Shown here one piece after another: positions 19,746-21,500 of a stretch of DNA of 38,619 nt (the first letter of the stretch is position 1; each line of letters begins with the position of its first letter). Position numbers and translations under genes: made by a program. The notes beneath the pieces are model-generated. The model saw only the letters and a program-made list of their open reading frames with translations, had not been told where the DNA came from and did no database searches. Source of the DNA: Minisyncoccota bacterium (GTDB lineage: Bacteria; Patescibacteriota; Minisyncoccia; Phycocordibacterales; UBA9973). The stretch is taken from positions 88,201 to 126,819 of the forward strand of contig JAGOUR010000002.1 of the NCBI GenBank assembly GCA_018061145.1, in the 5' to 3' direction.

Positions 19746-19822
19746 ATATAAAACTCAACATAGTTGCAAAAATTATTAAATAAGGTAATATATAGTCTAT
19801 TGAGTTTTTACTCGATATTTAT

Positions 19823-19848
19823 GGGCCGTTAGCTCATCTGTAGCACAA
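19823..19848 (+). pseudogene. tRNA-Ala 5'-half copy
   Basis: GGGCCGTTAGCTCATCTG at 19823-19840 is identical to the first 18 bases of the functional tRNA-Ala, 70 bases downstream. It continues with a degraded D-arm (TAGCAC versus GTAGAGCAC). No anticodon or T arm follows. The bases upstream also resemble the leader of the real gene, so leader plus 5' half were duplicated together. Confidence 0.8.
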
Positions 19849-19892
19849 CAGAAGCAAATTTAAGTTATTAGGTTTAGTGTAAAGTTATTCAT

Positions 19893-19965
19893 GGGCCGTT
19901 AGCTCATCTGGTAGAGCACGTCATTTGCAATGACGGGGTGGCAGGTTCGAGTCCTGTACGGTCCA
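19893..19965 (+). tRNA. tRNA-Ala (anticodon TGC)
   Basis: The acceptor GGGCCGT (19893-19899) pairs with ACGGTCC (19958-19964, one G-T pair), with discriminator A19965. The D stem is GCTC/GAGC, the anticodon arm CGTCA-TTTGCAA-TGACG, and the T arm GGCAGGTTCGAGTCCTGT. The CCA tail is not encoded. Confidence 0.95.
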
Positions 19966-19980
19966 CACGTTGAAAAAGTA

Positions 19981-20007
19981 GCCCCGACTTTGGTCGGGGC
20001 CTTTTTC
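19981..20007 (+). terminator. Terminator after tRNA-Ala
   Basis: GCCCCGAC-TTTG-GTCGGGGC (19981-20000) is followed by CTTTTTCTT. It is enclosed by a 10-bp inverted repeat, ACGGTCCACA (19958-19967, tRNA 3' end) and TGTGGACCGT (20011-20020). Confidence 0.85.
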
Positions 20008-20010
20008 TTG

Positions 20011-20300
20011 TGTGGACCGTAAGCAAATGAACTGCTTCATTTGCGCCAGGACGAGAAAGACTTTTCTGTGATTTGTTTACAAATCCAGAAAAGTACCCGC
20101 GACCGTAGGGCGAGAGATTCCTGTAGGACGAAAAAGGTTTACTGACCATGTAATGGTCGAGATTCCTGCCAGGACGAGAAAGACTTTTCTGTGATTTGTT
20201 TACAAATCCAGAAAAGTACCCGCGACCGTAGGGCGAGAGATTACTGTAGGACGAAAATGGATACTGGTCATGTAATGACCGAGATTCCTGTACTTTCCAC
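20011..20300. repeat. tRNA-Ala-linked structured tandem repeat
   Basis: This gene-free stretch starts with an inverted copy of the tRNA 3' end (20011-20020) and an 8-bp hairpin GCAAATGA/TCATTTGC (20023-20044). Two tandem units of ~123 bases follow (20045-20167, 20168-20290). Each unit has hairpin A (ACTTTTCTG, then GATTTG-TTTA-CAAATC, then CAGAAAAGT), a GGGCGAGAGATTCCTGTAGG-type linker, hairpin B, and the linker CGAGATTCCTG. Hairpin B reads GACCAT-GTA-ATGGTC in unit 1 and GGTCAT-GTA-ATGACC in unit 2, with two compensatory pair changes. The linkers and the last 20 bases (CGAGATTCCTGTACTTTCCA) resemble the tRNA 3' end (CGAGTCCTGTACGGTCCA). The minus-strand open frame across it is antisense to the tRNA and not credible. 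Confidence 0.8.
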
Positions 20301-20326
20301 AAAAAAACGCCTTCGGGCGTTTTTTC
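20301..20326. terminator. Bidirectional terminator before ddl 3' end
   Basis: AAAAAACGCC-TTC-GGGCGTTTTTT at 20302-20325 ends the repeat region on the plus strand and ddl on the minus strand. Confidence 0.85.
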
Positions 20327-21333: not shown

Positions 21334-21364
21334 ATTTTTATTATAGCAAATAAACTGATTTTTA

Positions 21365-21486
21365 ATAAAATTTATAAATAGTTATTGAGCAGGAACCTGC
21401 GCAGGAGCGACTGGCGACGAGCAGAGCACAAAAATTCAGCAGAATTTTATGCGTGTCCTGCGAAATAAGCTATTTACAAATTTTAT
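21365..21486. repeat. 122-bp palindromic element between ddl and the ATP-grasp gene
   Basis: The ends at 21365-21381 and 21470-21486 are inverted repeats matching at 16 of 17 positions (ATAAAATTTATAAATAG type). Inside are CGCAGGA/TCCTGCG (21400-21406, 21456-21462), AAAATTC/GAATTTT (21431-21437, 21442-21448) and the small palindrome GCAGGAACCTGC. The right end overlaps the last ~5 bases before the ATP-grasp stop region at 21501. The structure is MITE-like, but no ORF or clear target duplication is seen. Confidence 0.65.
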
Positions 21487-21500
21487 TTCTATTTTTATTT

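Follow-up and report, generated by a model that had tools for sequence, protein, structure and literature searches.

Structured elements that carry copies of the 3' end of a neighboring tRNA form an array behind tRNA-Ala and a family behind tRNA and tmRNA genes of Patescibacteria

The window analyzed here is a stretch of 38,619 nucleotides from a Patescibacteria genome of 734 kb, with positions counted from its first letter. Its plus strand carries a tRNA-Ala(TGC) gene (19893–19966; ARAGORN and Rfam RF00005) that is preceded by a partial duplicate of its own 5' end (19816–19840, a 96% direct repeat of 19886–19910) and followed by an intrinsic terminator with terminator-like character on both strands (19981–20008). 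Behind this terminator lies a repetitive array (20010–20302), and a second intrinsic terminator (20302–20325) marks its end, so that the array is enclosed by terminators on both sides. A first-pass annotation had placed the repeats directly after tRNA-Ala, which is incorrect because the first terminator intervenes.

The array opens with the acceptor-anti arm (20010–20021), in which the acceptor 3' end of tRNA-Ala (19957–19968) recurs as its reverse complement, a perfect inverted repeat of 12 nt. Hairpin H1 (20023–20044; 9 bp with a CTGC loop) separates this arm from a second inverted copy, the T-anti arm CCAGGAC (20046–20052), which is the reverse complement of the 3' strand of the tRNA-Ala T-stem as seen in the sequence and in the T-anti test described below. 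Module A1 continues with hairpin H2 (20060–20094), lying within a match to R1, our covariance model of this core (20046–20124, E 2.6e-8), and with hairpin H3 and its GTA loop (20098–20112, from the R1 alignment), and is closed by a T-sense copy, TTCCTG (20118–20123). Sequence and direct repeats define three further modules on the same strand: B1 (20124–20168; T-anti TAGGAC, H3 at 20144–20158, T-sense at 20163–20168), A2 (20169–20246; T-anti, H2 at 20183–20217, H3 at 20221–20235, T-sense TTACTG), and B2 (20247–20290; T-anti TAGGAC, H3 at 20266–20280, T-sense at 20285–20290). The A2 region is again matched by R1 (20169–20267, E 3.2e-8). Last comes an acceptor-sense copy, TACTTTCCACA (20291–20301), in which the 3' end of tRNA-Ala is repeated directly though in decayed form; it pairs with 20010–20021 when the two are folded together computationally.

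Every feature that the first-pass annotation had listed for this array is present in the sequence. The two units of about 123 bp are real, with copies 123 nt apart (20045–20137 and 20168–20260) that are 98% identical across 93 nt and tail parts (20132–20168 and 20254–20290) that are 81% identical; together the two units contain four T-stem modules. Each unit has the reported 15-bp hairpin with one bulge (20060–20094, repeated at 20183–20217), composed of 9 + 6 bp with a single bulged T and a TTTA loop. The small hairpin indeed differs at two base pairs with pairing kept (GACCAT-GTA-ATGGTC at 20144–20158, GGTCAT-GTA-ATGACC at 20266–20280), both differences being compensated, and the inverted tRNA 3' end is present ahead of the array. 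The suggestion of an inversion-prone palindrome was not supported, as the GTA loop keeps one orientation and the stem varies freely. The predicted fold of the array beats all of 200 shuffled sequences (z = −5.7 on the plus strand, −6.8 on the minus strand), and a scan for sigma-70 promoters gave no signal above chance.

The array at 20010–20302 is one member of a family that stands behind many tRNA and tmRNA genes. In the genome of the window, homologous elements follow the genes for tRNA-Glu (CTC and TTC), His, Ser (TGA and GCT), Gln (TTG and CTG), Gly-TCC, Asn, and Trp, with a remnant behind tmRNA, and the arms of each element resemble the tRNA in front of it. Each element combines three parts: the T-arm of its own tRNA in inverted form, split by a 9-bp hairpin; a structured core; and the tRNA 3' end repeated in direct orientation. 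In the order to which the window belongs, the inverted copy also takes in the acceptor end. Read along the tRNA strand, the full plan is acceptor-anti, H1, T-anti, H2, a UACYG linker, H3 with its GUA loop, an optional H4, T-sense, and acceptor-sense. H1 stems are varied in sequence among relatives, and their pairing is almost purely Watson-Crick.

Two unrelated cores occupy this common plan. The type-1 core found in the window was detected with R1 in 56 of 148 genomes of the order, and a search of a sample of 380 genomes from the phylum gave no match outside the order. R1 matches in named genomes fall into Nomurabacteria, Kaiserbacteria, Taylorbacteria, Yonathbacteria, and other Patescibacteria, some of the records being titled merely "bacterium". 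The type-2 core (R2) is present in 96 of 286 genomes of the class and in 50 of the 380 phylum genomes, 31 of which lie outside the class. The first-pass annotation had stated that its reading would be refuted if related genomes held no homologous units or if hairpin arms changed without compensation; homologues were found in many genomes and their arms vary with compensation, so that this refuting outcome did not materialize.

The arms fit the tRNA beside which they stand. For type 1, T-anti arms match their own tRNA at 4.48 of 5 positions (3.03 ± 0.09 with permuted tRNAs), and the acceptor-sense and acceptor-anti arms match at 5.63 and 5.69 of 7 positions, respectively (4.50 ± 0.09 and 4.36 ± 0.10 when permuted). 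Among type-2 elements of the class sample the acceptor-sense copy is the best kept part (6.27 of 7 vs. 4.46 ± 0.18), and the acceptor-anti signal is weak (5.09 vs. 4.51 ± 0.14), which makes the acceptor-anti arm mainly a type-1 feature. The same correspondence can be followed at a single locus, where tmRNA ends vary (CATCTCCAC, CAGTTCCAC, CACTTCCAC) and the inverted arm varies accordingly. The earlier proposal of a link to tRNA-Ala was thus right about the tRNA end and wrong about Ala: the partner is whichever tRNA or tmRNA stands upstream, and the arms fit that one. An RNA specific to tRNA-Ala can be rejected since the elements follow many tRNAs and tmRNA.

Placement relative to these genes is strictly directional. 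A tRNA or tmRNA 3' end lies no more than 500 nt upstream on the same strand for 65 of 80 type-1 modules, and none of the remaining 15 has such an end on the opposite strand. Searching named genomes for the exact core pattern gave 39 of 57 sites behind tRNA or tmRNA genes and none in opposite orientation, and type-2 elements are found behind tRNAs at 22 of 29 loci in the class sample and at 16 of 20 in the other classes of the phylum. Many of the non-linked sites are near contig edges, after a decayed tRNA or, judged by eye, after a tRNA that appears to be interrupted by an intron. Because many copies lie at contig ends, the family may account for some of the assembly breaks beside tRNA genes of Patescibacteria. 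In one related genome (G017), tRNA-Phe is separated from its terminator by the element. At two loci (L278 and L287) elements stand behind a tRNA that ARAGORN missed; there, interruption by a group I intron was suspected by eye, and Rfam did not confirm it.

The claim of selection on structure held, as shown by covariation. Across 90 distinct type-1 modules, 92.9% of paired cells are standard pairs, and the covariation score is 0.575 compared with 0.181 ± 0.008 for shuffled alignments and at most 0.108 with partners slid. This alignment had been fitted to the structure and is therefore biased towards it; a seed alignment built without structure shows two-sided changes in 12 of 22 pairs. Imperfect pairs are more often G.T than A.C (30 vs. 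10, p = 0.002), suggesting that it is the plus strand that folds, and one G.U pair is kept in all nine sequences of the type-2 seed alignment.

These observations support the main rival to the interpretation that we develop below, namely that the elements are structured, co-transcribed RNAs that serve a function in the cell, a reading that we hold less likely. Its tail would mimic a tRNA, with an acceptor and T-stem helix in which the core replaces the T-loop, and it might bind a tRNA enzyme or control maturation of the preceding tRNA. The plus-strand signal, the invariant type-2 wobble, the strong covariation, the strict same-strand placement, and the phylum-wide spread of type 2 all speak for this possibility. 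Against it stand the low G.U content (1.9%, vs. 4.8% in tRNA stems of the same loci), the occurrence of two unrelated cores within one plan and, as described next, patchy occurrence with fast turnover at orthologous tRNAs and direct repeats that extend well into the trailer, where tRNA selection does not act.

In 46 of 86 elements, 12 nt or more of the tRNA 3' end recur exactly as a direct repeat, and none of the 86 matches another tRNA in this way. For type 1 alone, 28 of 65 elements keep a distal copy of at least 12 nt; many have lost it, which counts against the insertion reading developed below. The left edge of the repeat is mostly at or beside the junction of T55 and C56 (GGGTT/CG in the tRNA, GTGAC/CG in the element), starting a few bases later in modules with H4. 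By contrast with this fixed inner edge, the right edge varies from 0 to 69 nt beyond the tRNA, so that the trailer and even the terminator can be included; because the trailer is not under tRNA selection, copying is a likelier source of the repeat than selection. The upstream tRNA stays complete. A repeat of this kind, anchored at a fixed inner edge, is one criterion for tRNA-integrating elements with a tyrosine recombinase, and the family satisfies it; the pattern resembles the footprint of site-specific insertion.

Orthologous tRNAs gain, lose, and swap elements. Comparing two genomes of one genus, elements behind tRNA-Glu-CTC, Ser-TGA, Gln-TTG, Gly-TCC, and Asn are present in G000 only and those behind Phe and Pro-TGG in G017 only, and at tmRNA within this genus anything from an empty locus to several modules is seen. 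A core usually has its closest match at a different tRNA, as in the pairs Glu-TTC and Pro-TGG (97%) and Ser-GCT and Gln-TTG (89%). Mean core similarity within a genome or within an isoacceptor showed no clean difference, so only this nearest-neighbor pattern is informative, and gene conversion that exchanges cores between sites could mimic part of the mobility signal.

Relatives also exist outside the tRNA context. Within the window, a dispersed relative of the type-2 core (21362–21488, plus strand; R2 match with E 3.3e-4; type-3 core at 21389–21461) has as its base a palindrome of 18 bp that is specific to this locus; it lies between ddl and the following gene and has no link to a tRNA. The one-contig genome G017 has many R2 matches that are not tRNA-linked, similar dispersed copies being scattered across it, and several of these stand on locus-specific palindromic arms of up to 17–19 bp where the control maximum was 13. 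Separately, tRNA terminators of G000 (e.g., at L015, L021, L024, and L034) are unusually long near-perfect palindromes that reach the tRNA end.

Such palindromes are what one would cite for a further rival, i.e., that the elements are by-products of replication in which template switching at hairpins yields inverted and direct repeats and perfects palindromes without any transposition. The long, nearly perfect terminator palindromes in the genome of the window, the almost purely Watson-Crick H1 stems, and the palindromic arms of the dispersed relatives fit this idea. We nevertheless regard it as very unlikely because it explains neither two cores conserved across families (for type 2, across classes) nor the fixed edge in the T-loop. 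Simple expansion of a tandem repeat was likewise rejected.

Position, strand, the two arms, the fixed inner and variable outer edge, turnover, and the conserved fold are thus established. The explanation that we favor, with confidence that hardly tips the balance, is that the family consists of undescribed non-autonomous, non-coding mobile elements targeting the T-loop of tRNA and tmRNA genes, where insertion does not damage the tRNA. We infer that cutting or exchange of strands at a specific site of the T-loop would join the right end of the element to C56 and that copying would then duplicate the tRNA 3' end. Movement may proceed via a single-stranded form of the plus strand, either RNA or single-stranded DNA, and the inverted arm would be made or kept through fold-back of this single strand on the tRNA end. 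Once in place, the inverted arm is predicted to lock the spare 3' end into its own helix and keep it from competing during tRNA folding, a shielding that would make insertion tolerable. Against this reading, the strong structural conservation and the G.U pair present in all type-2 seeds suggest a role for the plus-strand RNA, something for which an element acting purely as DNA would have no need.

Since no protein is encoded by the elements themselves, any enzyme that mobilizes them has to be supplied from outside, and we found none linked to them. We saw no excised form, nor any otherwise identical strain in which the site is empty. Y1_Tnp transposase genes are mildly enriched in element-bearing genomes (42 of 56 vs. 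48 of 92 others, Fisher p = 0.009), and near-complete carrier genomes without Y1 exist (e.g., G083 and G034). Small GIY-YIG genes are universal in the sample and hence do not discriminate, although some are neighbors of elements behind tRNA or tmRNA genes. At the tmRNA locus of the genome of the window (L072, minus strand), a small GIY-YIG open reading frame lies between tmRNA and the core remnant and ends inside the H2 arm, with a further GIY-YIG match just upstream of the tmRNA. Behind tRNA-Trp of the same genome (L030, reverse complement, ca. 1911–2816), a ribokinase-like gene is located between two element copies in a cassette-like manner. These two cases indicate that elements can frame genes.

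A specific form of the mobile-element reading would make them integron- or satellite-like cassettes, inserted by a tyrosine recombinase either as a circle or as a folded single strand with a stem that, like attC, mimics the att site of the tRNA. The direct repeats with their fixed edge, the folded stem that equals an att duplex with H1 as a one-sided extra hairpin, and the ribokinase-like gene would agree with this. We consider it unlikely because no recombinase was found linked to the elements (without a genome-wide integrase survey), nearly all of them lack a gene, and identical repeats run beyond the tRNA end, which is unexpected for an att site brought from elsewhere.

A bolder version of the mobile-element reading, which we put forward merely as a possibility, takes the inverted T-arm as a guide: the single-stranded form would pair with the near-universal T-loop region, join between T55 and C56, and renew both guide and direct repeat by copying the new tRNA. 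If true, a whole bacterial phylum would harbor a mobile element that carries its own guide and retargets itself, and one that is safe for its host because the tRNA is rebuilt.

The statement that the repeats fit neither CRISPR, REP, nor known non-coding RNA families also held. Rfam was searched at gathering and at lenient thresholds; in the window and at eight element loci only tRNA reached the gathering score, and other matches in flanking loci do not cover the elements. A group I or group II intron was not supported, the intron covariance models giving no match on the elements; one group I intron lies nearby at locus L272. Phage records gave no match, and three pattern scans of viral contigs returned five contigs with the core pattern that are unrelated, further matches having been checked for tRNA adjacency only. 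CRISPR was excluded based on repeat architecture rather than cas genes, given that the units are whole structured modules, 98% repeated, with conserved "spacers".

Among known systems, REP/BIME elements with their RAYT (Y1_Tnp) transposases are similar in being small, non-coding, hairpin-based intergenic repeats, and HUH transposases occur in many of these genomes. However, the family differs by a larger multi-helix fold, the link to tRNA 3' ends, and copies of the neighboring tRNA, and an arrangement of elements flanking a Y1 gene was rejected after inspecting 14 Y1 loci (type-1 matches at 0 of 14, type-2 matches at 1 of 14). Islands and satellites integrated at tRNA 3' ends by tyrosine recombinases share the direct repeat, the T-loop edge, and the intact tRNA, whereas the elements described here are ca. 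100–300 bp long, too short to encode a recombinase and without an integrase gene, carry an extra inverted copy of the tRNA end, and have repeats that extend tens of nucleotides past the tRNA. Integron attC sites resemble them as folded single strands with a stem that imitates a recombination site and with one-sided extrahelical parts (no attC model was applied), but here the stem sequence is that of the adjacent tRNA, and there is no integrase and almost no cassette. Primer binding sites of retroviruses and LTR elements are comparable in that the inverted arm complements a tRNA 3' end up to the T-loop, yet this arm is split by H1 and stands beside the gene of its own tRNA, and no reverse transcriptase or LTRs were seen. 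The double-hairpin elements of mitochondrial genomes are mobile non-coding hairpin units in compact genomes as well; to our knowledge, they have no tRNA-derived arms.

Our literature search, which did not cover most subscription journals or any preprints, found no description of such elements. The family resembles REP/BIME, tRNA islands, attC sites, and primer binding sites in part, and for each of these a defining feature is missing or untested. Patescibacteria are tiny, mostly uncultured bacteria with some of the smallest genomes among bacteria; the family occurs across this phylum and touches tRNA and tmRNA genes, which are among those least free to change. If mobile, the elements have arms that are rewritten to suit each new tRNA and a precise landing point in the T-loop, and the mechanism can be tested directly; if functional, they constitute a new class of tRNA-linked RNA.

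Two minor observations concern the surroundings of tRNA genes. Decayed partial copies of tRNA 5' ends lie upstream of element-bearing tRNAs not only at 19816–19840 of the window but also at L008 (590–657) and L010 (ca. 450). At the beginning of the window, an open reading frame at 62–745 overlaps and follows tRNA-Leu(CAA) and contains a LAGLIDADG-like domain (PF14528, E 3e-13), a homing-endonuclease-like gene immediately behind this tRNA.
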